Assembly (NCBI RefSeq): GCF_900108095.1
Contig: NZ_FNWL01000001.1
Span: 372,001-436,000, forward strand
Source of the DNA: Natronorubrum sediminis
Lineage (GTDB): Archaea; Halobacteriota; Halobacteria; Halobacteriales; Natrialbaceae
DNA length: 64,000 nt
Direction of reading: 5' to 3'
In this document: positions 2,244-21,561 of the stretch, piece by piece
Position numbering within the stretch: the first letter of the stretch is position 1
Layout: each line of letters opens with the position of its first letter
Program-made: the position numbers and the translations under genes
Notes under the pieces: generated by a model
The model's database searches: none
What the model saw: only the letters and a program-made list of their open reading frames with translations
Told to the model about the DNA's origin: nothing

Positions 2244-2345
2244 AGGACTATTGCTCGCTACGTCCCGATTCAGGTATGTAGAAGCCTTGGCACATCCTGT
2301 GGGCGATCCCAGGAACGGAGCGATCAGGACCGTAGCTTTGCTGAG

Positions 2346-2693
2346 TTACTTTTCCGCGGCCTCTACGAATCCTTGTTGCCGGAGATTTTGATCCCAGTGC
2401 TTGATGAATCCGTTCAGCTGAAGACCGTCTTCGTCACGTTGGTACACTCGTGGATGCTGCGTGAATTCGATCGGGATCCAGTCGCCGTTTTCGACACGGA
2501 AGACGATCTCAGGATCGCACATCAGATCACATCGCTGGACGTAATGATGAGCCACGCTAATCTGCTGTTGGCCGACTTTTTCGATCGCCAAGTCATTGTA
2601 CCCGGGGACTTCGACGGTGTAGCTCTCGTTGACGTCCATCTGCTCGACTGATTGGATACCTAACTGTGCAAGAATTTCTTGTACTGCCTTCAT
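2346..2693 (-). CDS. Small haloarchaeal protein, DUF6908-like
   Basis: A 115-residue acidic protein beginning MKAVQEILAQLG, with central IEKVGQQQISVAHHYVQ and DPEIVFRV followed by YTQHPRVYQRDEDGL. This layout resembles the DUF6908 family common on haloarchaeal plasmids and proviruses, recalled from memory and not searched. There is no signal peptide, membrane segment or metal motif. It is transcribed alone, between the divergent TBP gene and a DUF4268-type nuclease gene. Function is unknown; its value is as a marker of mobile-element gene content. Confidence 0.72.
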   Translation of the reverse strand: MKAVQEILAQLGIQSVEQMDVNESYTVEVPGYNDLAIEKVGQQQISVAHHYVQRCDLMCDPEIVFRVENGDWIPIEFTQHPRVYQRDEDGLQLNGFIKHWDQNLRQQGFVEAAEK

Positions 2694-2824
2694 CCTGGAA
2701 TTGAACTGGTTTCGTTTTCGTACAAAAATGTCCGTAGGCCCCCTCCATCACACATGTGTTAGAGAATATATCAGTAGCCATACAAACTGCTTGCAACTCT
2801 TGCATGTTGTTCGATCTGTTCCGT

Positions 2825-3787
2825 TCACAGTCGCTGGAGACGGTCACCGAGCACCTCGTGGAAATGTTCGCCGTATTCCAGAAACCACTTGATATGCTCG
2901 TCCCACATTTCCCGGTCGTCCAGCGTACCGTCTGTGCGGAGTTGAATCGCACTCCGCATATTCCCGCTCCGTGTCTCTTCAGGTTCATCCCAATTGAGCG
3001 AGTGACCAAGCTCCTCTTCGATTTGCTCCTTGTCCTCGTGGAGTTGCCAGAACGCTTGCTCGTCGTCCTCGACGAAGAGGGTGATGCCACGTTCCTCCGC
3101 TTTCCGATCAAAGAGGAAAGAGATGTGAAACCCGGATTTACCAATTGGATTTGAATAGTAATGACGGGGGCCTGGCTTCCGTGCGCTGAGAGGTGTTTGT
3201 TCCTGCTCAATTCGATTACGGAACATTGTCCAGAACTCTTCACGGCGTTCCGCCTGTTCGGAGAGTTCGCCCTCTGAACGTCGTGCTTTGGCTTTCCACT
3301 CACTGGGTTGGTCAACCGGGTTAAGGCGGAACGCTGGCGCGGACTCACCGATTTTCCACACTTCAAGTCGGAGGGCGAAAAGGTCCACGCCTTCTCTGCT
3401 GTTGCTATTCAACCACTGGACGGCGTCTCGGTGTTCATCGTTGAATCGGGGGGCGATCCAGACGATGATGTCTGCGTCTATGCCTGCAGCATAGGCGATG
3501 GCTTTGCCGAGATGGTCGTGATCGGATTGCGTGAGCTGGTTCTCAATCACGACGTTGCGTCCGTCGGCTTCGACTCGCGCGAGGATATCAACGCTGTATT
3601 TCCCGACACTCTTCTCAATCTCGACCACGTCTAATTCTAGGCCGAGCATATCCTCTAGGTGCGATGTTTCGTCGGATCGGATCTCCTCAGCCAACCACGG
3701 CGTGAACTCTTGGGCTTCATGCTGCCAGTACTCTCGAACGTCTTGTTTCTCAAGATCGCGGAAATCGAGATCGTTAAAATTTCCCAT
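2825..3787 (-). CDS. DUF4268-type protein with N-terminal PD-(D/E)XK-like nuclease domain
   Basis: A 320-residue protein if started at ATG 3787 (MGNFNDLDF); an upstream ATG at 3814 adds nine residues. Near residues 65-105 the motif VDILARVEADGRNVVIENQ followed by SDHDHLGKAIAYAAG is a restriction-endonuclease-like core: an Asp, then E-x-Q in place of the usual E-x-K, then a helix. The C-terminal half (WTMFRNRIEQE to IKWFLEYGEHFHEVL) matches the DUF4268 layout. Such proteins occur singly in defence islands and are assumed to be nucleases acting on foreign DNA, but no activity can be shown here. The Gln variant is typical of this subfamily. Confidence 0.78.
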   Translation of the reverse strand: MGNFNDLDFRDLEKQDVREYWQHEAQEFTPWLAEEIRSDETSHLEDMLGLELDVVEIEKSVGKYSVDILARVEADGRNVVIENQLTQSDHDHLGKAIAYAAGIDADIIVWIAPRFNDEHRDAVQWLNSNSREGVDLFALRLEVWKIGESAPAFRLNPVDQPSEWKAKARRSEGELSEQAERREEFWTMFRNRIEQEQTPLSARKPGPRHYYSNPIGKSGFHISFLFDRKAEERGITLFVEDDEQAFWQLHEDKEQIEEELGHSLNWDEPEETRSGNMRSAIQLRTDGTLDDREMWDEHIKWFLEYGEHFHEVLGDRLQRL

Positions 3788-3882
3788 TATTGGATGTTCA
3801 CACCCGTAGGACAAAATTCTGCGGGGCGTTTAATCACTGGCAGAAAGTGTCAATGTCTCCTGCGATAGTCCAATTTCCTGTT

Positions 3883-3894
3883 CTGACTAGTCAG
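3883..3894. promoter_or_regulatory. Perfect 12-bp palindrome upstream of the 3927 gene
   Basis: CTGACTAGTCAG is a perfect palindrome ending 32 bases before ATG 3927 and just ahead of an AT-rich catataac that could be the TATA element. Its position fits an operator for a dimeric regulator. Only the symmetry and placement support this. Confidence 0.3.
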
Positions 3895-3926
3895 AGTCAT
3901 ATAACTTGGCTGGAAACAAGCAGAGC

Positions 3927-4547
3927 ATGGCCAAATGGTTTACAGAAAAGGGTGCGACAGGAGAGGTATTACTCGAACGACGTGGTAAAGACTGGTTTGT
4001 TGCTTCTCCACCGGGTGACGGTGACATCAAATGTATGCTGGAGGACGAAGAGTTGGTCGATAGCTCTTCAACCGAGCAGCGAGTTGAAGCTACCGTATCT
4101 AATTTTATGCGTGGAACCGGTGGGGATGAGAGCTTCCTCTTCTTGAGTTCGCCAAATGCTGAACACGAAAGCGAAGCCAATGAGTCAGAATCCAATGATC
4201 GATCTCCTACTCCCACTCCTTCTGACAGTAAAACGTCTTGGACCTCAAACGAAACATGGCAGCTCAAAGATTTCCGCGGGTCTGGAGAGTACGTTGATGT
4301 CGAAGCGACGATTGACTCGGTATTCTACGCCAAGAAGGACACAAACGGTGTACCCGATATCAAGGGGGAACTCACCGATGATAGCGTCCTAAATCCAGTC
4401 TATTTCATCGTCGAGGACGGCACGACTCATCCCTACCTCAAAGAAGGGAAGCGATTCCTGTTCAGGAATGTTAAGGATCATTACTACAAAAAACAGGCCG
4501 AGGTTCAGGTTGTCATTAGCAATAGTACCGACTTTATCGAACGATGA
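3927..4547 (+). CDS. Uncharacterised two-domain protein with acidic Ser/Pro linker
   Basis: ATG 3927 (MAKWFTEKGATGEVLLERRG) gives 206 residues. An N-terminal segment (residues 1-75) is joined by a low-complexity linker rich in Ser, Glu, Pro and Thr (about 80-110) to a C-terminal segment of alternating beta strands (YVDVEATIDSVFYAK, PVYFIVEDGTTHPYLKEGKRF, AEVQVVIS) that reads like an OB fold. No catalytic motif is visible. An OB-type nucleic-acid-binding role is an inference from strand pattern only. It is a single gene between two divergent or convergent nuclease genes in the accessory region. Confidence 0.6.
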   Translation: MAKWFTEKGATGEVLLERRGKDWFVASPPGDGDIKCMLEDEELVDSSSTEQRVEATVSNFMRGTGGDESFLFLSSPNAEHESEANESESNDRSPTPTPSDSKTSWTSNETWQLKDFRGSGEYVDVEATIDSVFYAKKDTNGVPDIKGELTDDSVLNPVYFIVEDGTTHPYLKEGKRFLFRNVKDHYYKKQAEVQVVISNSTDFIER

Positions 4548-4654
4548 CACCGAAATCGATTTCAAGTGCTAACGACGATCGCGGAAAATGTCAAGTGTCA
4601 GTTTAGCTTTTGGAGGTTGTCATAACATTTCCATAGACTTGCTTCTCTTTCTTA

Positions 4655-4663
4655 TTCCTACGA
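4655..4663 (+). promoter_or_regulatory. TTCCTACGA element (partial copy of the accessory-region motif)
   Basis: This nine-base core is identical to the core of the 15-bp direct repeats at 6871 and 6933 (reverse orientation there). It lies about 130 bases before the HNH gene, in a 249-base AT-rich spacer (4548-4796) that also holds TATA-like tcatataaataacc near 4715. A nine-base match alone could be chance; it is listed because other copies also precede accessory genes. Confidence 0.3.
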
Positions 4664-4796
4664 ACTAATTGGCTGAATTCCTTTACGGAATATACACCAG
4701 CAAATCTAAAAGATAGTCATATAAATAACCGACTATTGTATTCTCTCAATTATAAAAGTATTAGTAGCTTCAATTATCTCTTTATGAGAGACGATT

Positions 4797-5300
4797 GTGT
4801 CGTCCTCAAGCCAGTATCCCGATAACTGGGACAAGCTCCGCAAGCGAGTCTACAAGCGAGATGGGTACCGATGTCAAAGCTGTGGTGCTGGCGGTGGTAC
4901 AAATGGTGACACAGTCCTTCATGCTCACCACAAGAAACCCATCGCAAATGGGGGCTCACATCGTATGTCGAATCTGACAACCCTCTGTCCCTCGTGCCAC
5001 AATGACGAGCATGAGCACGACATTCAAGCATGGAAAGATTCCTCAACAAATAAATCTAACTCGAAAACGTCATCAAACCGAAATCGATATTACCACACTT
5101 CGGACGGTCGCAAGAGAGTTAATGACTGGGATTGGGGAAGCTCGGCTGAAGAAGTTCTGGAGGAGGAGAAGCCAGAACCGGCTGAAGTTGCATTCGGAAT
5201 AGTGATAATTTTGATAATTGGGATCTTGGTGTTCATCTACTTTGAGATCGTTTTAGCGGCGATTGCAGCGTTTGCCATCTTGTATCTGATGACTCGTTAA
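4797..5300 (+). CDS. HNH endonuclease with C-terminal membrane anchor
   Basis: A 167-residue protein from GTG 4797. Residues 1-80 form an HNH/McrA-like domain: WDKLRKRVYKRDGYRCQSCG, then LHAHHKKPIANGGSH, NLTTLCPSCHNDEH. The two C-x2-C pairs bind structural zinc and the HH pair with the downstream N and H forms the nuclease site. After a Ser/Asn-rich linker, residues about 130-163 are strongly hydrophobic (VAFGIVIILIIGILVFIYF and IVLAAIAAFAILYLM), which predicts two membrane helices. A membrane-tethered HNH nuclease is unusual and could act on DNA entering the cell (inference). No start other than GTG fits the domain. Confidence 0.82.
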   Translation: MSSSSQYPDNWDKLRKRVYKRDGYRCQSCGAGGGTNGDTVLHAHHKKPIANGGSHRMSNLTTLCPSCHNDEHEHDIQAWKDSSTNKSNSKTSSNRNRYYHTSDGRKRVNDWDWGSSAEEVLEEEKPEPAEVAFGIVIILIIGILVFIYFEIVLAAIAAFAILYLMTR

Positions 5301-5372
5301 GACATAATTGAGCTCGCGTCAAGTAGTTGTACAGAGGATACGTGAACTGTTCTATAACACCCTCACTAAGAG

Positions 5373-6473
5373 CTATTGAGGCGAAACGCCGAAGACCTCA
5401 TAGAGTCGGTCAAGTGTCTGCTGGTCTCGTAATTTTGTAACCGTATTCTGGTTTGCGTATAACCCCTTCTCCCAGAACGCGTCTTCTATGTCTCTCGTCT
5501 CTATCCAATCGACACCGATGAGATACTCCCGGAGGTCGGGGTCTTCGGAATCCTTGCTTAAGTCACCTTCAAGCGGTGCTTCGGTGATCGGAATTTCATC
5601 TTCCTCGCCTTCCACATCAACCATAAACTCTGGTGCCGGTGTCTTCTCTTGAGTTACTATACCAACACCGATGTATCCCTCTCCAGGATGATTGACAAAT
5701 ATGCGTTTTCCCTCTTTGGCTTTCCCCATCGTTCGGTGATACCACTCACCGTGACCACCAGTGATGAACCCGTACTTGCGACCATCTTCCCATCTGCGGT
5801 ACTCGTTCTGTCCGAAATTCGCGTAAAAGTCGAATCTGTTCCAAGGTTTCCGGGCGTCTTCTTCTTCCTCTTCTTCCGATTCATAGGGGTCTTTTAGCCA
5901 AGTACGGGCGATGTATTCGCGCCCATCTTCTTTGTAGTAATTGAATCGGATCGCATTTATTGGAACTTCGTATTCTTCGGAGAGATACTCAATAATACGT
6001 TCCGTTGAACTATCTAATTCCGAGGAAACTATCGTCAGCATGTGCTGGCTGTTCACATCTTCAGGTCCTGAGGGAGCATCATCTTGTGTAGGATAGAATG
6101 CAGAGTCGAATCCTACTTCGAACGTATTGTCGTGTTCGTCCGAGGCTTCGTATAGCTTCTTCACATCCTGATAGTCTAGGTGCCGAACCCAGGATGCATA
6201 GTCGATAACCTGCGCCGTGACGTCACGCGGTGATTGATCACGTTTCAATTCTACCACATGGAGGTCGCCTGCCTCGTCGATTGCCAAAATATCAAGACGG
6301 TTCCCGCTGGGGGTCGTTATTTGCCGGTCGATGACCAGAAGGGGTTGACCAAGCACGTTTGGGTCCTGGAGGAGGAATTCTTCAAGACGCTCTTCACTGT
6401 CTAACTTTGTGGATGAAACTCGCTTGAAGGAGTCGTCGTTCTCAACCCGCCAGAGTCCCAAATCAATCGGCAT
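5373..6473 (-). CDS. NucS/DUF91-like PD-(D/E)XK nuclease family protein
   Basis: A 366-residue protein starting MPIDLGLWRVENDD. Residues 25-100 carry the NucS-like core: LEEFLLQDPNVLG, then RLDILAIDEAGDLHVVELK with the D and E-x-K catalytic triad, and AQVIDYASWV with the usual glutamine helix. This N-terminal architecture is shared with archaeal NucS and DUF91 proteins. The rest is acidic, with an EEEEEED run near residue 200, and has no recognised domain. It lacks the canonical NucS C-terminal PCNA-binding tail. In this nuclease-rich neighbourhood it is more likely a defence or element-encoded nuclease than the housekeeping mismatch nuclease. Substrate unknown. Confidence 0.77.
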   Translation of the reverse strand: MPIDLGLWRVENDDSFKRVSSTKLDSEERLEEFLLQDPNVLGQPLLVIDRQITTPSGNRLDILAIDEAGDLHVVELKRDQSPRDVTAQVIDYASWVRHLDYQDVKKLYEASDEHDNTFEVGFDSAFYPTQDDAPSGPEDVNSQHMLTIVSSELDSSTERIIEYLSEEYEVPINAIRFNYYKEDGREYIARTWLKDPYESEEEEEEDARKPWNRFDFYANFGQNEYRRWEDGRKYGFITGGHGEWYHRTMGKAKEGKRIFVNHPGEGYIGVGIVTQEKTPAPEFMVDVEGEEDEIPITEAPLEGDLSKDSEDPDLREYLIGVDWIETRDIEDAFWEKGLYANQNTVTKLRDQQTLDRLYEVFGVSPQ

Positions 6474-6571: not shown

Positions 6572-6829
6572 CTAATCTCGATCAGTTGTTGAGGTCGAGG
6601 TGTAGTTAGGAAGCCACCAAACTGTTGTCCGCCCACCGACCTTCTTAGATTCGAGAGTATCTACTTCTTCGAGCTGAACAAGTCGGTCATAGACTGAACG
6701 TCGTTTGATAGGAAGCTCAGTGGAGACTTCAGAAGCAGTCAAAACGGGATCGGCAGATTGGCGGAAAACCTGGAGAATTTCCTCATCAGAAACCCGTGGC
6801 TTCGGTCCTCGCTTCTTTTCTTCGCCCAT
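6572..6829 (-). CDS. Winged helix-turn-helix transcriptional regulator
   Basis: An 85-residue protein. VSDEEILQVFRQSADPVLTASEVSTELPIKRRSVYDRLVQLEEVDTL is a winged-helix module with recognition helix RRSVYDRL, and the wing reads LESKKVGGRTTVWWLP. The N-terminus is basic (EKKRGPKPR). It is divergent from the Cas4-like/TFB operon, with the intergenic space holding two copies of a 15-bp direct repeat, so it probably controls itself and that operon. DNA-binding family is clear; effector and target are inferred. Confidence 0.85.
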   Translation of the reverse strand: MGEEKKRGPKPRVSDEEILQVFRQSADPVLTASEVSTELPIKRRSVYDRLVQLEEVDTLESKKVGGRTTVWWLPNYTSTSTTDRD

Positions 6830-6870
6830 TCATCCTAACGACGTGTGCACAACTTCAAAAGGAAACTCCA

Positions 6871-6885
6871 CCATCGTAGGAACTA
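6871..6885. repeat. 15-bp direct repeat, copy 1 (putative operator)
   Basis: CCATCGTAGGAACTA occurs here and identically at 6933-6947, 62 bases apart, in the space between the divergent wHTH gene and the Cas4-like operon. Two identical copies at about six helical turns suggest a regulator site. Related sequences in inverse orientation precede the trlF-like gene (14669-14703) and the HNH gene (4655). Confidence 0.55.
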
Positions 6886-6932
6886 ATTAATGATTTAGAG
6901 AGTCGTGTACTCCACAAATACCTAAAATACCG

Positions 6933-6947
6933 CCATCGTAGGAACTA
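6933..6947. repeat. 15-bp direct repeat, copy 2 (putative operator)
   Basis: Second identical copy of CCATCGTAGGAACTA. It lies about 118 bases before the ATG of the Cas4-like gene at 7065. Confidence 0.55.
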
Positions 6948-7064
6948 TATGGTGAATTGCCGGCGCATGAAGGTTCATATCCAGAATCGGTGGTTAACTG
7001 TGGGAGAGTCATTCTCTGATCAAACCTCCCTATTCGAAACGATCGATAAGCAGGGTGAACGAAA

Positions 7065-8159
7065 ATGACGTTCCCAGATCTGAATGAACTACTCAAATCT
7101 GAATTCACGGATGACGATGTCTCCGCTGCGACCATAAGCTTAGTTGATCAGATACAGAGTACTTCATTTGACCGATGGTACCGTGCACAGGAGTTCGCCT
7201 CCAATATTCAGAACGGGCAGCCGTACTTCAATGGTCCCAGTCCAGTTCCTGATCCGATCCGTCATAGCCCGAGTCAACTCCTGCAATGCACTCGCAAAAT
7301 CCACTACAGACAGCACAACGCTCCGAAAGAGACTGCAGACCCGTTAGGCATCTTTTGGGTAGGCGAACACGTAGAAACCGACCTAATCCTTCCGTACTTC
7401 CAAGCCGTTGCTGACGACGACGTATACGTCCAGAACGGTATTTGGGTTGACTTCACGGTTGAATCTCGGACTGGGAAACTGCGTCTCAAAGGCGAAACCG
7501 ACCCCGTTTTTGTTGATGCGGAAGGCAAACCGGTTCTGCTGACCGAAATCAAAACGAAAGATTCTATCGAACATCTCGACTCACCAAATGACCACCATCT
7601 CGCACAGGCGCACGCCTACATGTGTGGTTTGACACAGAAATTCGACCGCCGGATTACTGACGCGTTGCTCGTCTACGTGGATCGCTCAACTTTGGATCTC
7701 AAGTCGTTCCATACGAAATTCGACGACAAATTTTGGAAAGACACGGTCTTGGACTGGGCCGCAGCGCACACCGAGTACCAAATGGACGAAGAATTGCCAC
7801 CTGCTGATCCCGAGTACGAGTGGGAATGCCGGTTCTGCTCTTATCGAGTTCGATGCGGGCGAGGCAACACGTCTCATCAAGACCACGGTTCGAGCGGGTT
7901 GCTCATCGGATATGATGGCTACCCACGTGAGGCCGTAATCGAGTATCTTGAGGAAAACCCAGATCAATTCCTGACACCGTCGATAGCGCGGAAATATCCC
8001 GATCTTGCAGAGGAATACGGTGTGATGAACTGGTACTGCGATGGGTGTTCCTCCGATGTTGGTTGGGATGAAGTTGACCCAAATGGCGATCCATTGTGCC
8101 CCAATTGCGCTGACAAGGGGGAGATATCGTCTCTTTCGCTTTCAGGGAGGGGACGATGA
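7065..8159 (+). CDS. Cas4/RecB-like PD-(D/E)XK nuclease with Fe-S cysteines and C-terminal zinc ribbon
   Basis: A 364-residue protein. The nuclease core is GETDPVFVDAEGKP followed by LLTEIKTKD (D and E-x-K) and HLAQAHAYMCG (Gln helix). One cysteine upstream (QCTRKIHYR, about residue 78) and three downstream (CRFCSYRVRCG, about residues 256-265) reproduce the Cas4/AddB 4Fe-4S arrangement. Residues 320-355 add a zinc ribbon (CDGC and CPNC). Cas4 enzymes are DNA exonucleases used in CRISPR adaptation or recombination, but no cas1, cas2 or array is visible here. It is the first gene of an operon and its last four bases overlap the TFB start (ATGA). The ribbon and the partners suggest an element-specific DNA-processing role (inference). 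Confidence 0.85.
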   Translation: MTFPDLNELLKSEFTDDDVSAATISLVDQIQSTSFDRWYRAQEFASNIQNGQPYFNGPSPVPDPIRHSPSQLLQCTRKIHYRQHNAPKETADPLGIFWVGEHVETDLILPYFQAVADDDVYVQNGIWVDFTVESRTGKLRLKGETDPVFVDAEGKPVLLTEIKTKDSIEHLDSPNDHHLAQAHAYMCGLTQKFDRRITDALLVYVDRSTLDLKSFHTKFDDKFWKDTVLDWAAAHTEYQMDEELPPADPEYEWECRFCSYRVRCGRGNTSHQDHGSSGLLIGYDGYPREAVIEYLEENPDQFLTPSIARKYPDLAEEYGVMNWYCDGCSSDVGWDEVDPNGDPLCPNCADKGEISSLSLSGRGR

Positions 8160-8935
8160 CACAGTCGGTATACGAACAAAGCGAACTCTGTCCCGTTTGT
8201 GAATCAGATGATATCGACGATTCTGTAGAGGTGTGTGACGCGATCTGTGAATCCTGCGGGTTCGTCATTAGTGAGAACACGGATTCCACTTCATTAGAAT
8301 GGGATGTAGCTGAAGGATTCTTCTCATCCTCGGAGGATAAAGACTGGATGTCGGAATGTCGAATCAGAAACGCAACCGACCAACAACTTGCGGAGGCTTT
8401 TGAGACGCTGGAGGAGTTTGCTAACCAACTCGGGCTTTCAGACGATTTGCGGGGAAAGACAGCGGAGATCTACTGTGATGCATTTCGAGCCGAAATCACT
8501 GACGGAAGGGTAACCGCTTGTATTATTGCGGCGTGCCTTCGATTGGCATCCCGACGTGGAGACCTTCCGATCCCGATGAGCCGGCTTACTGAGTTTTCGA
8601 GTGTTGACGAAAAGAAATTCCATCGCAGCCACCTCGCCCTGTGTGACGAGTTGGATATAGAACCTCGTACGCCAGCACCATCGGAGTACGTATCGTTCCT
8701 TCAATTGGAACTAGGACTGACAGATGCCGATTATGAAGAAGTAGAACAGCTCGTGGACGAAGTTGAGAGAGAGCAGATGTTTGTGGGGAAGGATCCAGCT
8801 GGGATTGCAGCTGGAGGTGTCTACCTTCTACAAGAGGATTTTACGCAGTTGGATGTTGCCAAGGCAGTTGGGCTGTCAACTGAGACTGTACGACAGCGTG
8901 TCAAAGACCTCCAGAAGGTTTTCGACGATGTTTGA
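8156..8935 (+). CDS. Shortened TFIIB-family transcription initiation factor (TFB paralogue)
   Basis: A 259-residue protein, against about 310-330 for a standard TFB. Zinc-ribbon cysteines C12, C15, C31 and C34 are present, then EWDVAEGF in the B-reader position. The linker is abbreviated before cyclin repeat 1 (LAEAFETLEEFANQLGL to ACIIAACLRLASRRG) and cyclin repeat 2 (FLQLELGLT to DVAKAVGLSTETVRQRVKDL, with the BRE-reading HTH). TFB joins TBP at promoters and loads RNA polymerase. It overlaps the Cas4-like gene by 4 bases and the recombinase gene by 8, so it is made together with DNA-processing proteins. The shortened linker suggests altered start-site selection (inference). Confidence 0.9.
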   Translation: MTQSVYEQSELCPVCESDDIDDSVEVCDAICESCGFVISENTDSTSLEWDVAEGFFSSSEDKDWMSECRIRNATDQQLAEAFETLEEFANQLGLSDDLRGKTAEIYCDAFRAEITDGRVTACIIAACLRLASRRGDLPIPMSRLTEFSSVDEKKFHRSHLALCDELDIEPRTPAPSEYVSFLQLELGLTDADYEEVEQLVDEVEREQMFVGKDPAGIAAGGVYLLQEDFTQLDVAKAVGLSTETVRQRVKDLQKVFDDV

Positions 8936-9878
8936 TCAGGAATCTGTGCGTGAACGAGTTGCAGAAAACGGGGAGACTCAGCAACTCCGAGCATCAGTAT
9001 ACGCGAGAACGTCGTCTAAAAGTCAGGAGTATGGGTACTCATTAGACGCGCAAGTACGTCGGAGTATAGACCGATGTGAATCGCTCGGATGGAAGGTTTG
9101 GTTCGTTTTCCGTGACGAGGCTGAGAGTGGTAAGGACACGGATCGTCCGATGTTCCGGAAAATGCTGAGTGCCGCGGAGAAGCAGGTATTTGATGTGGTC
9201 GTGATCTGGAAGCTGGATCGATTTTCACGGAGTCTGATGCACGCAGTACAGCTGGAATCTGAACTGAGACAACACAACGTGAGTCTGTACAGCGTAACGG
9301 AACAGATCGATACGACGAGCGCGACGGGACGGTTCAACTTCAGGAATATTGCTAGTGCAGCTGAATTTGAACGGGACATGATAAAGCAACGGACCCAGAT
9401 GGGGCTCAACGAACTTGCGTCCGAACTGAAGTGGCCGAATAACTCGCCACCGTTAGGTTATGAGTTGGATTCTGAAAGAAAACTCATGCTCGTAGAGCAG
9501 GAGGCGGACATAGTTGCTGGGATATTCGAACGCTATATCGAGGAACGATCGATGCCGGAGGTTGCGAGGTGCTTGAACGAGCAGGATATCCAGACACGAG
9601 AAGGGGGAGAGTGGACACCACGGGCAGTGGGTGACATCTTACGGAACGAGATCTACGCAGGAGTCTACGAAGTCGCAGACATTTCTAAACATGTTCCTGA
9701 GTACCAAATAATTGATTCAGATACGTTTGAAGAGGTAAAATCGATTCGTCACCGATTCCAAGGAGGTGGTGCTTCGAAGTCATCAATGTCCAACCCACGG
9801 AAGGAGCGAGCGATCAACAGAATACGAGAAATGTATCAGGAGTACCGTTCGGCTAATTCCGTCGAGGATAGATTATGA
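8928..9878 (+). CDS. Large serine recombinase / resolvase-invertase family
   Basis: A 316-residue protein from ATG 8928, chosen because it overlaps the TFB stop by 8 bases and starts just before the domain. The resolvase catalytic domain shows SVYARTSSKSQEYGYSLDAQ (nucleophilic Ser near residue 29), WKLDRFSRS and RFNFRNIASAAEFERDMIKQR. A Recombinase DNA-binding domain follows (PPLGYELDSERKLMLVEQEA to AVGDILRNEIYAGVY). The C-terminus is short with no zinc beta-ribbon, so it is compact for a large serine integrase. Cotranscription with a Cas4-like nuclease and TFB is unusual. It probably moves or inverts an element segment. Confidence 0.92.
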   Translation: MFDQESVRERVAENGETQQLRASVYARTSSKSQEYGYSLDAQVRRSIDRCESLGWKVWFVFRDEAESGKDTDRPMFRKMLSAAEKQVFDVVVIWKLDRFSRSLMHAVQLESELRQHNVSLYSVTEQIDTTSATGRFNFRNIASAAEFERDMIKQRTQMGLNELASELKWPNNSPPLGYELDSERKLMLVEQEADIVAGIFERYIEERSMPEVARCLNEQDIQTREGGEWTPRAVGDILRNEIYAGVYEVADISKHVPEYQIIDSDTFEEVKSIRHRFQGGGASKSSMSNPRKERAINRIREMYQEYRSANSVEDRL

Positions 9879-10528
9879 TTGTAGCGAACTACGACATGCT
9901 TGGTCGTATTTTTACTGGCCCCGAACTGCAGTTACTGATTGAGGAGAATAGCCATGACCTGTTCGACTGGCCGCTTACATGTCCGATTTGTAATAGACAA
10001 CTCACCTACCAAAGTGCCTCACTTGAACGGCCTTTCACTTATTTTTCTCACTCTGATGGAAGCGCAGATTGTTTCGAAACTAAATCTACGTCTGATGAGC
10101 ACAGACTCGCTATCGAATACACAGTAAAAGCACTCTATAACCGAATCAGTGAGGTAACCGGAGAACCAGTAGTGATTGATGTGGAAAAGTGGATCGGCAC
10201 ACGGGAGAAGTTCGTTATTGCAGATGTGCGAGTCACATCTCCACTTAATATTGCTGCTGAAATATTCTACAAAACAGAGAGGCTTGCGCTCGGTCGTAGA
10301 CTCAGAACGGTGTTCGCCAATGATTTCAAATCATATCTGGTGTTCCATACAAATGGCAAACATAACCCTAATCGAATTGAACGCTATCTTCAACAGGTAG
10401 CTCCGATCAGGGTTGGTCGCTTCGATGCTAACACTCGGGAAGTAACACTTGGCGATCTGTTTTCTGCAGAACAAGTCACATTGAGCCGTTCCGATCGGGA
10501 TCGCTTACCTAATTACATCGCTCGATAG
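9875..10528 (+). CDS. CoiA-like protein with N-terminal zinc finger and putative nuclease domain
   Basis: A 217-residue protein whose ATGA start overlaps the recombinase stop. TCPICNRQL with FSHSDGSADC resembles the CoiA N-terminal zinc-binding segment. SDEHRLAIEYTVKALYNR followed by VIDVEKW, FVIADVRV and NIAAEIFYK follows the CoiA-like restriction-endonuclease fold, with D and E in strand positions although the E-x-K is degraded. CoiA-like proteins are linked with DNA uptake and recombination and are common in mobile elements. It ends the four-gene operon. The assignment rests on motif layout only. Confidence 0.6.
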   Translation: MIVANYDMLGRIFTGPELQLLIEENSHDLFDWPLTCPICNRQLTYQSASLERPFTYFSHSDGSADCFETKSTSDEHRLAIEYTVKALYNRISEVTGEPVVIDVEKWIGTREKFVIADVRVTSPLNIAAEIFYKTERLALGRRLRTVFANDFKSYLVFHTNGKHNPNRIERYLQQVAPIRVGRFDANTREVTLGDLFSAEQVTLSRSDRDRLPNYIAR

Positions 10529-10557: not shown

Positions 10558-12105
10558 TCAGAGGATTGAGTGTAACTTATCCAGATTCACCAGCATCTTC
10601 ATCATTTCACGCTCCGATTCGTTTGGCCATCGTCGATAGAAATCGCATTCAGCGTTGGAACATTCATACATGCGAGATGCGTGTTCTCCGTCAATCAAGT
10701 ACTGACCTCTGGAATTCAGCCTTTCACGACACTTGGGACATTGTAACTCTACAATAGGACTGGTGGCCTCAACTACGAACGGGCTGAATTCTTCGTTGTA
10801 GTCGGCTGGGGAAAATGTCACATTCTCATTAGAGCTGTGTTTCTTTCTTAGCTCTACTATGATTTCCTGAGCCTTTTTAAATTTATCTTCACTGACAAGA
10901 GCCAACCCAGGATCCACTATGCTTGGGTATGGCTCATAGTGTTCAAGTGACGTGACCGGGATTGTCGGTTCACCCTTATAGAGCGGCCGACGTAACATCG
11001 AACGAATTTGAGAATAGGTCAATCCAGAATCCTCATTTATATCTCCATCCTCATTTGTCTCTTCGCTAAGACGGCTGAGTTCCTCGCTGTACCTTTCGTT
11101 TATTATCGATTCTACATCTGCATAGCTTTCTTGCTCGATGAATTCGTCGAAGATGTCCCTGATTATAGGTTTCATCCACTCAATCGGCTGTATCCAGTCT
11201 TCTTCGTCAATACGCACGTATCCTACAGGGACATCACTACCATACCACGAACTCCATTGTTTGTCTTTTAGGAAATTATCTGCCTTGGATCTGTGTGATG
11301 ATCGAGCTCGGTTCATCGTTCCAAAATCAGCCATCGAAGCTAACATCGTCACCTGCATCTTGTCGGTTGGTTTGAGAACGTCGAATTCTTGTGTCCTGGT
11401 TAATAACTTGACGTCACACTTCGTTCGCAGGTGTTTGATGAACATAATCGTCTCCGCGACGCTTCGACCAATTCGGTCAATTGTGTCCACGAAAAGGTGA
11501 GTTACTTCGTCGTTGTGTGCTAATTCCGCAACACGCTGGATTCCTTCTCGCTCGAAATTTGTTCCAGTCTTCCCCTCATCCCTGATGGGTTCCTGCATAT
11601 AGGTTCTCATATTCGGATTTGCGTCAACTATGGAAGTGAGTTCATCTTCTTGGGATTCTAATGAACGACCATCCTCCTTCTGTTCATTCGAACTCACGCG
11701 TACGTAGATGAGTACACATTTTTCGGCCTCGTCGATCTCAGTCTCGTCACCTGAACTACCCCCTGCTGGCTCACTGCCGTTTTCAACTTCTCCACTGTCG
11801 TGATGAGAAGTCCCACTTTGAGAAACAGGCTGCGTACTGTCACCGTCGCTCTGGGTGTCGGGCGAATTCCGAGCGTAGTCCCAGAGTGATCCCTCAGATG
11901 AGGTCAGCAGCAATGAACTGCCGACAACGGGGACCACTACGAATCCGCCTTGACTTAAGTTTGAGGCCAAGGCTGAAATAAAAGATTGTATACGACGATC
12001 GAACGCATACCGTATACAATCTTTTATTTCAGTGTGGGGGCAATCGAGGTAGTCTGTGAGTGCCGAACGACGGGGAGCTGAATCGATCAGCCAGCCCGCC
12101 TTCAT
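10558..12105 (-). CDS. Large serine recombinase with zinc beta-ribbon and unusual N-terminal extension
   Basis: The open frame has 515 codons. The recombinase proper starts near residue 128: CVLIYVRVSSNEQKEDGRSL (catalytic Ser about 138), FVDTIDRIGRS, then a Recombinase domain with YSQIRSMLRRPLYKG and a zinc ribbon (CPKCRERL and CSNAEC). The first 125 residues are not part of the family: about 85 are a Ser/Gly/Glu-rich linker, and residues 25-45 are encoded by a 22-bp inverted repeat. The ATG overlaps the stop of the tyrosine recombinase gene (ATGA). Either the extension is genuine or translation starts later at a GTG or TTG. It is convergent with the CoiA-like gene, 29 bases away. Confidence 0.85.
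   Translation of the reverse strand: MKAGWLIDSAPRRSALTDYLDCPHTEIKDCIRYAFDRRIQSFISALASNLSQGGFVVVPVVGSSLLLTSSEGSLWDYARNSPDTQSDGDSTQPVSQSGTSHHDSGEVENGSEPAGGSSGDETEIDEAEKCVLIYVRVSSNEQKEDGRSLESQEDELTSIVDANPNMRTYMQEPIRDEGKTGTNFEREGIQRVAELAHNDEVTHLFVDTIDRIGRSVAETIMFIKHLRTKCDVKLLTRTQEFDVLKPTDKMQVTMLASMADFGTMNRARSSHRSKADNFLKDKQWSSWYGSDVPVGYVRIDEEDWIQPIEWMKPIIRDIFDEFIEQESYADVESIINERYSEELSRLSEETNEDGDINEDSGLTYSQIRSMLRRPLYKGEPTIPVTSLEHYEPYPSIVDPGLALVSEDKFKKAQEIIVELRKKHSSNENVTFSPADYNEEFSPFVVEATSPIVELQCPKCRERLNSRGQYLIDGEHASRMYECSNAECDFYRRWPNESEREMMKMLVNLDKLHSIL
11973..12032. repeat. Perfect 22-bp inverted repeat with 16-bp spacer
   Basis: The left arm (11973-11994, starting CTGAAATAAAAG) and right arm (12011-12032) are exact reverse complements around a 16-base spacer. 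The arms are AT-rich and contain tgtatac. The repeat lies inside the frame of the serine recombinase, just after the point where it overlaps the tyrosine recombinase. It could be a recombination site, a transcription stop for the integrase, or the footprint of a small inserted element. Confidence 0.85.
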
Positions 12106-13232
12106 AAGTACCCACCCCCGTTTTCGTTAGCGTGCTTGTCCAAGATCTGACGACGCACTTCGCGGCGCTCCTCTTCCGTTGTCTCATCATAGTATTTCCG
12201 GATGACCTCCTCCGTGACATCACAGCGATCGCTGAGGAGGTCGATGGGGACGCCGTTGCGCCGGGCGTCGGTGATGAAGCCATGTCTCAGCGTATGTGGC
12301 GAGCGGCTGGACGGGCACTTCGAGGCGTCGTCGCTCGACCGGTTTGCCTCGCAAGCCTCTGGATCGCGGTCGTGGGGGCAGTCAGTGCCGATCGAACAGG
12401 GTCGGCTCCAGCGGTAGATGCAGCGGCGGAACGTCGAGTTCGAGATTCGGCCGTGCGAGGTTGCTAGGAGCGGCTCACGGCCGTGGTCGTCTTCGACATC
12501 CGGACGCGTGTTTGTGAGATAGTCTCTGATGACGTCAGCCTGGGCCGGGGTTAGTGCGACGTGGCCTTCGCTTTGCTCACAGTTTTTCAGCCGGGTCTCC
12601 GTCTCTGGGCGGTGGCTGAATTCCAGGAAAGGTGCCTCGTCCGCAAGGTGGGTGTCGTCACAGTCGAGCGCGATTAGGCAGCCGGTGCGGCGGCCGGTGC
12701 CAGCGGTGAGGGCCCAAATGACGTGGTCGAGCGACGCGTATTCGAACGTGGCGAGGTAGTCGAGGACGCGCTCGACTCGCTCAGGATCCATATCGACGTC
12801 CCGGACTCCGTCACCGTCTCTGAGGTCGGGGATGGAGATCGAGTTACTAAGGTCAGGTGTAACCGCGTCAATGTCTTCGAGGTACTGAACCCAGTTCCGG
12901 AGTACGAAGAGGTCGTCTCGGATAGTCTTCGTCGCCAGCTCCTCAACCTCGTCAGTGGAGTCGTATCGCCGCCAGGCGATCATGTCGTCGAGGGTCCGAC
13001 CATCGAGCTCGCGGAGATCCTCAATGCCGTTCCGGTCGAGGTATTGTCCGTAACGGCTGAGTTTACGCTCGTACTCGGTGAGGGTGTTCTCGGTGAGTTC
13101 CGAGCGTCGCTTCTTCAGGTAACGCTGGATGCCGTGTTCGGGCGTACACGGTTTGAGATCAGGGCCGAGTTCGTTGGCGAGTCGCTCAAGCAGGTCTTCC
13201 TGGGAAAGCTGGTCGATCGAGGACTCACTCAT
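12102..13232 (-). CDS. Tyrosine recombinase / phage-type integrase
   Basis: A 376-residue protein from ATG 13232 (MSESSIDQ), selected because it forms an ATGA overlap with the small gene upstream; a further ATG at 13241 adds three residues. The N-terminal SAM-like core-binding domain (IQRYLKKRRSELTENTLTEY) precedes the catalytic domain with Arg in TAGTGRRTGCL, HTLRHG and the nucleophile in KYYDETTEEE. A cysteine-rich loop (CSIGTDCPHDRDPEAC) before HTLRHG is typical of haloarchaeal integrases. It performs site-specific integration and excision. It is linked by overlap to a large serine recombinase gene downstream, so two unrelated recombinase types share one operon. Confidence 0.94.
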   Translation of the reverse strand: MSESSIDQLSQEDLLERLANELGPDLKPCTPEHGIQRYLKKRRSELTENTLTEYERKLSRYGQYLDRNGIEDLRELDGRTLDDMIAWRRYDSTDEVEELATKTIRDDLFVLRNWVQYLEDIDAVTPDLSNSISIPDLRDGDGVRDVDMDPERVERVLDYLATFEYASLDHVIWALTAGTGRRTGCLIALDCDDTHLADEAPFLEFSHRPETETRLKNCEQSEGHVALTPAQADVIRDYLTNTRPDVEDDHGREPLLATSHGRISNSTFRRCIYRWSRPCSIGTDCPHDRDPEACEANRSSDDASKCPSSRSPHTLRHGFITDARRNGVPIDLLSDRCDVTEEVIRKYYDETTEEERREVRRQILDKHANENGGGYL

Positions 13233-13423
13233 CGATCCCACCTCGAATTTTTGGCGTGGTCTTGACCGAGGTCCGTACGATCCACTCCTACGTCGCTTTT
13301 CAACGAAATCGCGTCAAAGTCTACTTCTTCAATCAGGTTGGCACGCTGCAAGAACTGTTCCAGAGGTTCTTCTTGTTCGGCTTGAGTTCGATGCGGTCGA
13401 TCAGTGCTGATGCGGTGATTCAT
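13229..13423 (-). CDS. Small acidic protein upstream of integrase
   Basis: A 64-residue frame (MNHRISTDRPHRTQAEQEEPLEQFLQ...) ending WDR-stop in an ATGA overlap with the integrase start. The tight coupling and acidic haloarchaeal composition favour a real gene. A helical segment (EEPLEQFLQRANLIEEV) is the only visible structure. It may be an integrase cofactor or directionality factor (inference). No family recognised. Confidence 0.6.
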   Translation of the reverse strand: MNHRISTDRPHRTQAEQEEPLEQFLQRANLIEEVDFDAISLKSDVGVDRTDLGQDHAKNSRWDR

Positions 13424-13546: not shown

Positions 13547-14230
13547 ATGTCAGAAAATGAAACCAGGGGGATTCTGACGCCTGCTGATAAAGAATGGTTG
13601 CGAGGCGAGACGGAGTATGAGCACCGCCAATCCGAGGCCAAACGCCGCCAAGAAATCCGAGAACGCGTTTCTGCTGCGCTAGAAGATTTTGCTATGCTTG
13701 TCGATCATTGGTCTGCAACAGAACGTCAGAAGGCCCTCAAAGAGATCAACCGTGAGAAAATCGCTACTGATACGATCGAATTTCTGTATCTTGGACTCAA
13801 TGGATACGCTTCCGATGCAGAAGAGATGACCGGTGAGAATGCAACTGATCGCGCATTAGCGTTTAGACGGGCCTTGAGTAACGGCATTCGGAATGGAAAG
13901 GAACATTTCGATAATGCACCAGATCACGTTCTGATCGACTCGAATACAGAATTATTTGAAATACCCTCAGTAGGGGATCTACAGCGCGCTATCGATACCG
14001 GTCAATGGCGAGATGCAAATGATCACGTTCGAGGTGCTTTCGATGAGCCTGACGATGCTGTCATAGAGAAGGAACAGGCAGCAAAACAGTTCCATATGGA
14101 CCTTCATTTGGCTATCGAACGTGAGTTATATTCGCGTCGGCAGCGTGCCAGATCAGAGATCAAGCGGCACGATACAATGGTTGGCTCTGCAGGTCTGTTG
14201 AGCGATCACAAGACGGAGGCCGACAAATGA
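13547..14230 (+). CDS. Conserved haloarchaeal protein of unknown function
   Basis: A 227-residue, highly charged, mostly helical protein: ILTPADKEWLRGETEYEHRQSEAKRRQEIRERV is an N-terminal module seen in many haloarchaeal accessory proteins (from memory). No cysteines, catalytic motif or membrane segment. It starts 123 bases from the divergent small gene and overlaps the next gene by four bases (ATGA), so the two are coexpressed. Divergence from the integrase operon suggests an element-maintenance or regulatory role (inference). Confidence 0.7.
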   Translation: MSENETRGILTPADKEWLRGETEYEHRQSEAKRRQEIRERVSAALEDFAMLVDHWSATERQKALKEINREKIATDTIEFLYLGLNGYASDAEEMTGENATDRALAFRRALSNGIRNGKEHFDNAPDHVLIDSNTELFEIPSVGDLQRAIDTGQWRDANDHVRGAFDEPDDAVIEKEQAAKQFHMDLHLAIERELYSRRQRARSEIKRHDTMVGSAGLLSDHKTEADK

Positions 14231-14562
14231 CAACAAGTGCAACCGGTGAAGAGGGGTATCATCGGGTATTGGTGGTTATCTCGGAACATCCGCAGAAACC
14301 TCTACTTGGTAATATCGTAGCACTACAAAGTTCGAACGAAGAGGAAATTGATAGCAGCATACTCCATTCGGTGGTTGACGACGCTAAAGAGCGTTTTGAG
14401 ATTGAGGAGTACGCTACTGAGCTCTACCTGGGGATATTATATGTTAATGATGAGACTGCTGAAGCTGTAGGCGTGTGTTGGGAAGATTCTCCGAAGCCCT
14501 ACAACCATGATGACTTTGAGGAACCTGTTGACGACCTCCCTGACGATTTAGTACAAGTGTGA
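14227..14562 (+). CDS. Small hypothetical protein coupled to the preceding gene
   Basis: A 111-residue acidic protein. Segments HRVLVVISEHPQKPLLGNIVAL, YATELYLGILYVNDETAEAVGV and a final DDLPDDLVQV suggest an alpha/beta fold. Its ATGA overlap with the upstream gene is strong evidence of a real two-gene operon. I recognise no family. Might form a pair (for example toxin/antitoxin) with its neighbour, but no hallmark motif supports that. Confidence 0.6.
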   Translation: MTTSATGEEGYHRVLVVISEHPQKPLLGNIVALQSSNEEEIDSSILHSVVDDAKERFEIEEYATELYLGILYVNDETAEAVGVCWEDSPKPYNHDDFEEPVDDLPDDLVQV

Positions 14563-14668
14563 TTATAGATTGATAGGGAGATAACATACCCTTCAGGTCA
14601 AACTGATAGCGGTCTGCCACAGGTTTCAGTTCCTCGCAACTCAGAGATCTCTAGGTGCCCCATCCAGG

Positions 14669-14703
14669 AAGTTCCTATCATTAACTCTTTAGTTCCAACG
14701 ATC
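14669..14703. promoter_or_regulatory. Two GTTCC-motif half-sites upstream of the trlF-like gene
   Basis: AAGTTCCTATCAT (14669-14681) and TAGTTCCAACGATC (14690-14703) resemble the reverse complement of the 15-bp repeat at 6871 and 6933 (TAGTTCCTACGATGG) with three and two differences. Their starts are 21 bases apart, two helical turns, and they end about 70 bases before ATG 14774. This suggests one regulator controls both loci. The rest of the 211-base spacer shows nothing else clear. Confidence 0.45.
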
Positions 14704-14773
14704 AAGATATACTCAGTTACGCGATTTACCAGAGCCCGATAGTTTGATTGTATGCCAAAATAACTAGAGTCCT

Positions 14774-17584
14774 ATGACCCTAGACCGCGGATCTAAGTGG
14801 CGGAAATGGGACTTGCACGTTCATACGCCAGAGTCATTTGAGGAACATTATGGGTTTGACGGCGAAGAAGAGGTGGAAAAATATGATGGAAACCACTGGA
14901 AGAAATATCTTGACGAATTGGAGTCGGTGACTGACGACATAGCAGCCCTTGGTATAACTGACTATATGTCGGTTGATGGGTATGAAAAAATTATAGAGGA
15001 ACGGGAAAACGGACGATTAGAACAAATTGACTTGGTTCTTCCTAATATCGAATTTCGGCTTGATGACCTCGTAGTCGAGAATAATAGTGGCGATACTACT
15101 CGCATAAACGCTCACGTTATATTCAGCGACAAGTTTTCGCCTGAGACTATCCGAGAGAGGTTCCTCCATCGGCTTGAATTTGAAAATCAAAACGGCGAGA
15201 GTCTCCCCCTGAGCAAAGGGAGCTTGAACACACTAGGGGGACAGCATATAGAGTCCAACCCGGAAGAAAATCACCTATCTCCGTATGTAGCCGGTTGCAA
15301 AATTGTCACAATCTCCTTTGATGATATTCTTGACAAACTTGACACCAAAAAATTTCGGAATGATCATATGGTCGTTTTGGCGACTGAAGGATGGGACGAT
15401 GTTAACTGGAATTCTCAGGGTCATTTGACCAAAGAGCGCCTATTTAGAGAGTCAGATGCCTTGTTCAGCAGTAATGAGGGTCGCAGGGAATGGGCTCTCG
15501 GAATCACGGATGGCGTAGAAGAGTTCGAGAGGTCCTTTGGCAAACCAACACCATGTTTGTGGGGTTCAGACGCACATTCATATGATCGGTTATGCGAACC
15601 TGATGAAGAAAGATACTGCTGGGTAAAAGCTGACCCAACCTTTGAGGGACTAAAACAGGTGATTCACGAACCCAAACGAAGAGTTCGTATTCAAAGTGAT
15701 TCTCCACGTGATTTCACCCCAATCCATACGCTTGATGAGCTTTCTATAGAAAACGGTATAGTTGATTCACAGTTGCGAATTGAAGAAGAGTCGATTCCAC
15801 TGAACCGTGACCTCTCGGCTGTAATCGGCGGCAAGGGTGCCGGAAAGACAGCTCTCCTTGACATGATTGCGACCAATTTCGAAGATAGATGGGATAGGGA
15901 CAAAGAGAAAGGGGAACCTCCATCTGACCGAAATTCATTTATACAGCGGATTCAGGACAAGGAACCAGACATAAAAACAAAGCTGAGCTTCGTTGGAGAG
16001 GATGTTGATGAGTTCTCTAAACAAGTGAGTGATGAAACTGTGTTTGAATCCGCAGATCTAGTTTATTTGCCGCAGGGGAAGATTGAGGAATATTGTAGGA
16101 ATGAAGATAGGCTACATAACCGCATTATTGCCTTGGTCGAAAGAGAAGTACAACGAACTGACCCTGAGATGGTTAATCGTTTGGATCAACTTCGCACAAC
16201 AACCGAAGAAATAGTTGAGAATTTCCGTACTATCACCTCAAATATTTATGACCTCAACCCTTCCAAGCTGAACAAAGAGAAGGAATCCCTACAAAGCAGA
16301 AAAAAGAGGCTCGGCGGTGACTTGCAATCCAAAAAGGCCGAGATATCCAACTTTGAGGAGAAACACGCTGATGTATTAGAAGACGATGAAGCGACTGACC
16401 TTCGGAACGAACTCGGAAAACTGCAAGAAGAGATCGAACAAATTGAGGATGCTGAAAAGATTACCGAATCCGTCCAAGAAAAGGTATCTAGGCTCTCAGA
16501 CATAAATACACAACTGAGAAAGCTCGAAGGCCTATTGGAGGAGATTGACGAAGGCGAAAACCTCCCTCGTATCTCTATTCAAAAGGTAAAGACGGAGATT
16601 GAGAAAAATCAGGAGAGACTCCAGACTCAGGTCAACCGTAAGCGGGCACGGCAAGATGAGATTGAGGAAGCTCTCGAAGAAATGAATGATATTCAACAAG
16701 AGTATTCAGACCTTCTGGTCGAGAAAACAACAATTGCAGACAAGATTAGTGATACTAAAAGAGAGTTAGATGAGATTGGGGCCAAATTAGAACAGATAGA
16801 GGACCTCAGGGAGGAACGAGAGTCCTTATTCGTCGAATATATACAGAAGTTTGACGAAGTTCGAAATCAATATCAAACGATTATCGATCAATTTGAATCA
16901 GACTCATCTGAGATTTTAAGCGATATCTCTTTTGAACCCGCAATTAAGGCGAGAGAAAATTTGGAGACCCGTCTTGAACGACATATCGATATGCGTCGAG
17001 TTGATGAAGACCGCCTGCCGAATGTCGTGAATAAACTCACAGACGCTATTGAGGCAGATACCCAAGCTCGCAGGAAGGAACTATCCAGAGAGTTCCTAAA
17101 CAAGACACAGAATCTCACCGAGAAGATGCTAAGCGGGACGAAGGAATTTGAGTACGAAACCACTGTGTTTGACGATCATCTGTCCCTGGTCGAGAAGATT
17201 TATTTCCGAGATTCACCTATGCCAAACCTGTCTCTCGGGCAGAAAGGGACTGTGTTGCTGAAGATACTATTGGCTGAGGAGGATACGCCACTTATTATCG
17301 ATCAACCTGAAGAGAACCTCGATAACGAATTTATTTATGAAACTCTAGTTGGCGCTTTCCGAGATGCCAAACTAACACGGCAGGTGATTATCGCTACTCA
17401 TAATGCCAATTTAGTCGTCAACACTGATGCTGAACAGGTTATTGTTGCAAACTATGACAATAATACTATCGGATTTGAGTCTGGCTCTCTTGAGAATCCC
17501 GACATTAGGGAGCGGGTTACGACCATCTTAGAAGGCGGGGAAGAAGCTTTCCGTAGACGAGAGGAGCGATACGAAATTGGCTAA
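14774..17584 (+). CDS. TrlF-family PHP domain / SMC-like ATPase
   Basis: A 936-residue protein. Residues 1-310 form a PHP-type phosphoesterase domain: KWDLHVHTPESF, ITDYMS, and WGSDAHSYDRL supply metal-binding His and Asp. The ATPase half has Walker A GGKGAGKTALLDM (about 352), a long coiled coil (about 480-720), signature LSLGQKGT (about 818), Walker B PLIIDQPEENLD (about 839) and switch ATHNANLVV. This matches TrlF-type ATPases, found with defence genes and thought to couple nucleotide-dependent sensing to nucleic-acid cleavage. It is a single gene behind the shared GTTCC motif. Family call firm; activity and target are inferred. Confidence 0.88.
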   Translation: MTLDRGSKWRKWDLHVHTPESFEEHYGFDGEEEVEKYDGNHWKKYLDELESVTDDIAALGITDYMSVDGYEKIIEERENGRLEQIDLVLPNIEFRLDDLVVENNSGDTTRINAHVIFSDKFSPETIRERFLHRLEFENQNGESLPLSKGSLNTLGGQHIESNPEENHLSPYVAGCKIVTISFDDILDKLDTKKFRNDHMVVLATEGWDDVNWNSQGHLTKERLFRESDALFSSNEGRREWALGITDGVEEFERSFGKPTPCLWGSDAHSYDRLCEPDEERYCWVKADPTFEGLKQVIHEPKRRVRIQSDSPRDFTPIHTLDELSIENGIVDSQLRIEEESIPLNRDLSAVIGGKGAGKTALLDMIATNFEDRWDRDKEKGEPPSDRNSFIQRIQDKEPDIKTKLSFVGEDVDEFSKQVSDETVFESADLVYLPQGKIEEYCRNEDRLHNRIIALVEREVQRTDPEMVNRLDQLRTTTEEIVENFRTITSNIYDLNPSKLNKEKESLQSRKKRLGGDLQSKKAEISNFEEKHADVLEDDEATDLRNELGKLQEEIEQIEDAEKITESVQEKVSRLSDINTQLRKLEGLLEEIDEGENLPRISIQKVKTEIEKNQERLQTQVNRKRARQDEIEEALEEMNDIQQEYSDLLVEKTTIADKISDTKRELDEIGAKLEQIEDLREERESLFVEYIQKFDEVRNQYQTIIDQFESDSSEILSDISFEPAIKARENLETRLERHIDMRRVDEDRLPNVVNKLTDAIEADTQARRKELSREFLNKTQNLTEKMLSGTKEFEYETTVFDDHLSLVEKIYFRDSPMPNLSLGQKGTVLLKILLAEEDTPLIIDQPEENLDNEFIYETLVGAFRDAKLTRQVIIATHNANLVVNTDAEQVIVANYDNNTIGFESGSLENPDIRERVTTILEGGEEAFRRREERYEIG

Positions 17585-21559: not shown

Positions 21560-21561
21560 TG

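Follow-up and report, generated by a model that had tools for sequence, protein, structure and literature searches.

Islands integrated into tRNA genes are known, whereas we know of no account of the route by which haloarchaea gather and exchange their antiviral genes. Here we describe a locus of Natronorubrum sediminis, examined in a window of 64,000 nt (NZ_FNWL01000001.1, positions 372,001-436,000; all window coordinates count from its first letter), in which an operon of four open reading frames (ORF1 to ORF4) for a Cas4-like nuclease, a paralogue of the transcription factor TFB, a small serine recombinase and a zinc-finger protein lies within such an island. We consider it probable, at roughly 60%, that the module built around this operon is the exchangeable recombination core of mobile, tRNA-integrated haloarchaeal defence islands.

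Several described systems resemble parts of this locus. With SNJ2-type proviruses and integrated elements (betapleolipovirus integrase family), the island shares its type of integrase and 14-nt att repeats at a tRNA 3' end; it differs in that no virion genes were seen among the island genes examined, that such islands span about 27-41 kb with much defence cargo, and that they hold a second recombinase set with a Cas4-like nuclease and a TFB. Staphylococcal cassette chromosome (SCC) elements, with their CcrA/CcrB pairs and exchangeable cargo, are comparable in that two serine recombinases accompany restriction cargo here and ORF3 matches the CcrB model. However, ORF3 lies far under the cut-off of that model (126.5 bits against 900) and is not scored as CcrA, CcrB or CcrC, the recombinases of the module are convergent rather than tandem, and a tRNA integrase at the island end, a Cas4-like nuclease and a TFB are added. 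ORF1 has the fold, the residues and the PHROG Cas4-like family matches of solo-Cas4 and mobile genetic element-encoded Cas4 nucleases, but differs from them by an extra zinc ribbon and by its recombinase partners; the recruitment of Cas4 involving mobile genetic elements has been treated before (PMC5704561), and searches of that work did not find this recombinase context. Sulfolobus TFB3, a TFB paralogue that is unable to replace TFB and works in trans (PMC7289017), is a precedent for a paralogue acting only in trans, although it belongs to another lineage and the module TFBs, which adjoin recombinases, retain the zinc ribbon and the cyclin repeats with their helix-turn-helix (HTH). Archaeal dark-matter islands likewise contain poorly known genes, integrases and defence genes, but a term search did not find the TFB/Cas4/serine recombinase unit among them (PMC4158269).

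An original prediction, made from the letters of the window, had described four overlapping genes, and these are intact: all lie on the plus strand, overlap successively by 4, 8 and 4 nt and contain no internal stops (for ORF3, the ATG at 8928 was taken as the start, the longest open reading frame beginning earlier). The module is nevertheless larger than four genes, adding a winged-helix (wHTH) gene (6572-6829, minus strand) and a convergent operon (10558-13241, minus strand) of a large serine recombinase, REC2, and a tyrosine integrase, INT2 (Table 1). The REC2-INT order is identical in L058, L059, L067, L070, L074 and L081. For comparison, 292 haloarchaea were sampled across the class, about 20 kb was pulled around each ORF1 match, and 48 loci were sorted. 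Relatives of ORF1 occur in 49 of the 292 haloarchaea and on nine haloarchaeal plasmids; none was found in phage records. In type A (21 of 48 loci), a TFB without B-reader and a small serine recombinase follow the nuclease gene in either order, usually succeeded by a convergent large serine recombinase. In type B (11 loci), the nuclease gene is followed by f9 (no Pfam match), a DNA-binding protein of the RHH/HTH-like kind (f10) and tyrosine recombinases. A wHTH gene of one of two families stands upstream in 30 of the 32 type A and B loci in the stretch read, often with a DUF7344 gene alongside. Type C comprises eight loci, and the remaining eight are other, truncated or at contig ends. A scan of named genomes gave the same picture in Halostella, Natrinema, Halococcus, Natronosalvus, Natrarchaeobius, Halorhabdus, Halobacterium, Halorubrum, Haloplanus, Haloferax, Salinigranum, Halogranum and others. 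Because the ORF1-ORF2-ORF3 arrangement recurs in many haloarchaeal genera, the grouping is not due to chance, and the possibility that the genes never co-occur elsewhere is excluded for ORF1-ORF3. The adjacency expected for all four families did not extend to ORF4: the exact four-gene set was seen only at the window locus, and the recurring units are wHTH/DUF7344 with the Cas4-like gene, and TFB with two serine recombinases.

Some loci show further features. On the right side of type B loci L048, L051, L056 and L060, up to four tyrosine recombinases occur per unit (two RHH-tyrosine recombinase pairs and one integrase pair). The Cas4-like genes of type C (L083:56-3840, L064, L072, L073, L076, L078, L079 and L082) stand directly behind Orc1/Cdc6 and form a single Cas4 clade, usually with HxlR-like and DDE transposase-like genes downstream; one of these loci is at the very start of a chromosome contig, a possible origin. 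In Halosimplex pelagicum (L171:9998-12039), the Cas4-like match is in two pieces about 0.9 kb apart, possibly owing to an insertion.

The head of the module (wHTH, usually DUF7344, and the Cas4-like gene) is constant, whereas the recombinase genes behind it change all together, the switch falling at the 3' end of the nuclease gene. The modules of G182 and G064 are 87% identical in nucleotide sequence from wHTH through DUF7344 and Cas4, ending about 31-46 nt before the Cas4 stop; past this breakpoint, recombinase-TFB-REC2 in one genome stands against f9-RHH-tyrosine recombinases in its counterpart, until the two sequences match again (93% identity) in a common pair of tyrosine integrases. All type A/B pairs of this group, which are 76-87% identical up to the break, diverge no farther than about 60 nt from the Cas4 stop, which the first cassette gene nearly always overlaps or abuts. 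Cassette types are interspersed on the Cas4 tree, where supported branches force at least nine (A1), five (A2) and seven (B) changes. In the recombinase tree, the A2 enzymes group as a single six-member clade (the row L077, although labelled A2, holds another protein), and A1 and A2 TFBs separate likewise in the TFB tree. The cargo between DUF7344 and Cas4 also varies, from none (G182, G064) to McrBC (G119), Avs2 with a methylase (G263) or a DinG-like helicase (G057).

The window's module is carried by an island of 29.6 kb (window -4953 to 24671) in the 3' end of tRNA-Arg(TCG). The boundary comparison suggested with the original prediction gave a clear outcome: a sister species of the same genus (G120) lacks the island, is collinear to window -4940 and again from 24658 in blocks that overlap by 14 nt, and thereby provides clean tRNA boundaries and the empty site. 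Over 99% of its length, the intact integrase shares 44% identity with its SNJ2 virus counterpart, and it is also 44% identical to that of HHPV4. An internal att copy beside a degraded integrase, together with the relic att copies at 24658-24897, suggests two islands in tandem that would have arisen by successive insertions at one tRNA gene. Ten module loci were extended outward in search of island ends. Three islands (G182, 40.1 kb; G064, 31.4 kb; G119, 34.3 kb) lie at an intron-containing tRNA with anticodon CAT (Met, as read from the sequence; in G064 Rfam confirms that it is a tRNA), and two (G257, 41.3 kb; G267, 27.0 kb) at tRNA-Arg(CCG). All five have 14-nt tRNA-tail repeats and, just inside attR, a minus-strand integrase 47-58% identical to that of the window, so that six islands including the window's are fully bounded; G244 and G263 were resolved in part. 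The cargo of the window's island is defensive, with a type I restriction-modification system (HsdR and HsdS lie just outside the window in the same island), two PDC-S11 proteins, an HNH protein and Ppl-like and LmuB-like SMC proteins.

The score of ORF1 against TIGR00372 (35.9 bits) is under the equivalog cut-off of 65, and we therefore name the protein Cas4-like only; its PDDEXK_1 score (29.5 bits) exceeds the cut-off of 22. The RecB/Cas4 site (D146, E161-x-K163, Q181), the Fe-S cysteines (C75, C255, C258, C264) and an extra C-terminal zinc ribbon (C325, C328, C345, C348) are invariant in 39 of 39 homologues, which bears out the cysteines and ribbon noticed originally, and Y185 is kept nearly always. 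The predicted structure (predicted local distance difference test score 83) has Sulfolobus Cas4 SSO0001 as its top fold match (E 1.2e-7). A viral origin of ORF1 was considered and not retained, as no phage record matched and one scan of viral contigs with single-sequence patterns also gave no match, although PHROG profiles of Cas4-like families do match. The idea that the C-terminal ribbon is an adaptor that tracks the cassette was likewise rejected, with eight changes on N-terminal and C-terminal trees alike.

ORF2 matches the TFIIB profile (E 3.5e-17) but does not have the canonical TFB make-up of zinc ribbon, B-reader, B-linker and two cyclin repeats. The B-reader motif is present in 0 of 20 module TFBs compared with 20 of 21 host TFBs, and about 55 residues of B-reader and B-linker found in canonical haloarchaeal TFBs are missing from all 20, whose median length is 265 residues against 323 for host TFBs. 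Seven canonical TFBs in the same genome have open frames of 320-345 amino acids (25-28% identity). The protein is thus not the complete though short TFB first supposed. In TFB, the ribbon recruits RNA polymerase, the second cyclin fold reads the TFB-recognition element (BRE) and the B-linker stabilises the template strand (PMC7289017). With reader and linker missing, a TFB of this type should not, judging from its sequence, initiate normally alone; an ordinary promoter-recognition factor, as first envisaged, is unsupported because the parts that feed the template strand into RNA polymerase are absent. A search starting from the TFB found TFBs of the module type in 20 of 284 genomes (two of the loci at contig ends); a serine recombinase of the module kind adjoins the TFB gene in 19 and a Cas4-like gene also in 14. 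This reader-less subfamily appears to be new. A TBP paralogue (plus strand) shares the island with the reader-less TFB, and the two are possibly a matched pair of element-encoded general factors.

Archaeal serine recombinases have received very little study (PMC8371274). ORF3 matches the Resolvase (E 1e-35) and Recombinase (E 1.7e-16) profiles, in agreement with the resolvase-type enzyme anticipated earlier. Upstream (5') of REC2, three closely related modules have common sequence up to GATGGACAGCTCACCTAT, which in G182 is the left half of a dyad completed by ACCTGTGCTGTCCATC. The right half is different DNA in G057 and Natrarchaeobius, where divergence begins just past the central AT, the pattern expected for serine integrase crossover. 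This 34-bp dyad (E044:34798-34831) hints at a putative recombinase site. Within the N-terminal extension of REC2, a perfect 22-nt inverted repeat with a 16-nt loop lies at 11973-12032; the true REC2 start may lie downstream. The G+C content of INT2 (about 61%, against about 46-51% in neighbouring genes) suggests a different origin or age.

ORF4 is accessory and stands in for the Cas4-like gene in at least one relative. Its homologues occur in 10 of the 292 genomes, and it is absent from nearly all modules. The zinc-finger assignment made originally holds, while the likeness to CoiA is only weak: CoiA_N matches three of the ten homologues (best E 0.018) and not ORF4 of the window itself. Fold matches of the predicted structure (score 88) are weak, some being restriction-endonuclease-like (E 0.016 or worse). 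In G220, two contigs combined give wHTH, DUF7344, ORF4, recombinase, TFB and REC2, with ORF4 in the Cas4-like slot; the contigs probably adjoin, since the recombinase gene is split between them (residues 14-127 on one, 124-306 on the other). The order wHTH-DUF7344-ORF4 recurs in L089, and the window carries both ORF4 and the Cas4-like gene.

Two upstream motifs were not retained as conserved sites. The operator-like CCATCGTAGGAACTA copies in the window, of which 0 of 100 shuffles yielded two matches, are local to it and not conserved in relatives, and the TTGATCAA block 5' of the Cas4-like gene is confined to a few related loci.

Table 1 Features of the module and its island, in window coordinates
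Feature	Position	Strand	Basis or remark
attL, CCTGCAGCGCCCAT, 3' end of tRNA-Arg(TCG), outside the window	-4953..-4940		14-nt repeat
Left cargo	1..6473		
HsdM	1-1422		
TBP paralogue	1644-2243	+	
PDC-S11	2825-3814		
HNH	4797-5300		
PDC-S11	5373-6473		
ORF0, small wHTH regulator, divergent	6572..6829	-	profile match and locus comparison
Two CCATCGTAGGAACTA copies between divergent ORF0 and ORF1, operator-like	6863..6958 (copies at 6871, 6933)	+	shuffles
ORF1, Cas4/RecB-like [4Fe-4S] nuclease with extra C-terminal Zn ribbon	7065..8159	+	profiles, invariant residues, structure model
ORF2, TFB paralogue without B-reader and B-linker	8156..8935	+	TFIIB profile, alignment
ORF3, small serine recombinase, resolvase and recombinase domains	8928..9878	+	profiles
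ORF4, zinc-finger protein, weakly CoiA-like, possible restriction-endonuclease-like fold	9875..10528	+	homologues, structure model
REC2, large serine recombinase, convergent	10558..12105	-	profiles
INT2, tyrosine integrase, 4-nt overlap with REC2	12102..13241	-	profiles
Right cargo	13547..22894		
PHP/SMC-like Ppl-type protein	14774-17584		
tRNA-type integrase, degraded remnant	17611..17826	-	beside internal att copy TGCAGCGCCCAT, ~17893-17904
LmuB-like SMC gene cluster	18589-22894		
SNJ2-type tyrosine integrase, intact, just inside attR	23544/23547..24554	-	virus comparison
attR, CCTGCAGCGCCCAT	24658..24671	+	further copy 24760-24773; degenerate copy 24884-24897

We propose a scheme in which (i) the SNJ2-type integrase most probably moves the whole island in and out of the tRNA gene; (ii) the wHTH protein would hold the operon off until induction; (iii) the inner recombinases most probably act within or between islands, where they would exchange or fuse DNA, whether cargo, cassette or tandem islands; (iv) the Cas4-like nuclease would process DNA ends or intermediates for this inner recombination; and (v) the reader-less TFB would serve the serine recombinases alone, whether it joins host TFB as a co-factor at promoters belonging to the cassette or acts as an accessory bound to DNA. 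The roles given to nuclease and TFB follow from gene order and conservation.

Several points weigh against the module being a recombination core. The reaction catalysed by the inner recombinases is itself a proposal, and, because the ribbon does not track cassette type, so is a direct partnership of nuclease and recombinase. The dyad's partner half did not turn up (best match 14/18 at E047:12105, expected by chance), and no att repeat bounding the module itself was found in the window, where comparing the INT2 flank with the left region gave only 12-mers, also expected by chance. Exchange at the Cas4 3' end could proceed by homologous recombination and be kept by selection for coupling. The type C loci have Orc1/Cdc6 before the nuclease gene, usually a transposase-like gene after it, and no recombinases. 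Among the ten loci extended, neither E042 nor E047 yielded island ends, and those of G080 are unclear. Lastly, TFB-REC-REC2 in G066 and G218, and TFB-REC in G115, occur without an adjoining Cas4-like gene.

These last loci also speak for a different, somewhat unlikely view, that TFB with its two serine recombinases is an independent mobile element, lodged behind the Cas4-like gene and borrowing its promoter, with the island as host only; the same would hold for the tyrosine set. Cassettes whose own trees keep them together while the Cas4 tree scatters them, and the att-like dyad next to REC2, at the centre of which sequences diverge, would fit this. Yet a first cassette gene that overlaps or abuts the Cas4 stop is hard to reconcile with insertion, a left end or repeat was not found, and the wHTH/DUF7344/Cas4 head usually has one cassette or another behind it. 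It is improbable that the operon is instead a defence system in its own right, whose effector would be the Cas4-like (or CoiA-like) nuclease and whose remaining genes would regulate it. It does lie among defence genes, under a repressor-like wHTH gene, and a Cas4-family nuclease is associated with Argonaute in ACE1 (PDB 9iac); however, PADLOC hits are limited to Cas4 profiles for ORF1 and one weak match of ORF2 to an HTH, with none for ORF3 and ORF4, the exchanged part is the recombinases and not the nuclease, and the at least two recombinases conserved in types A and B are needed by no defence mechanism.

We regard as very improbable a phase-variation device that would use its serine recombinases to flip or shuffle neighbouring genes such as HsdS, with help from the Cas4-like protein and TFB. 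ORF3 also matches DNA-invertase profiles and hsdS is in the same island, but serine recombinases with a recombinase domain usually integrate and excise, and the long perfect inverted repeat within 6400-13600 (that inside REC2) encloses no gene; repeats around hsdS were not searched. A DNA-uptake module, favoured only by the weak CoiA-like similarity of ORF4, is extremely improbable, as that gene is rare and missing from nearly all modules and no pilus, channel, DprA-like or other competence gene was seen in the set.

In summary, the exchangeable recombination core is the reading we prefer. Of the new class of mobile or DNA-uptake module predicted originally, a conserved, apparently undescribed set tied to mobile DNA remains, and uptake is unsupported. 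As that prediction had held, no described element or defence system with this content emerged from PADLOC or from term searches of the openly available literature (including PMC5704561, PMC4158269, PMC8371274 and PMC11078007). The island type is already known; the core module appears to be new. More tentatively, it is possible that the module represents a new class of recombination system in archaea. In it, a general transcription factor that has lost its polymerase-entering parts would have become the dedicated partner of two serine recombinases and, behind a Cas4-like nuclease, would work as an interchangeable engine for building and reshuffling defence islands. A TFB subfamily shorn of reader and linker and travelling with recombinases would show a general transcription factor put to a new use, and the constant nuclease with its interchangeable serine and tyrosine recombinase sets offers a concrete marker and a testable engine for antiviral-gene traffic.

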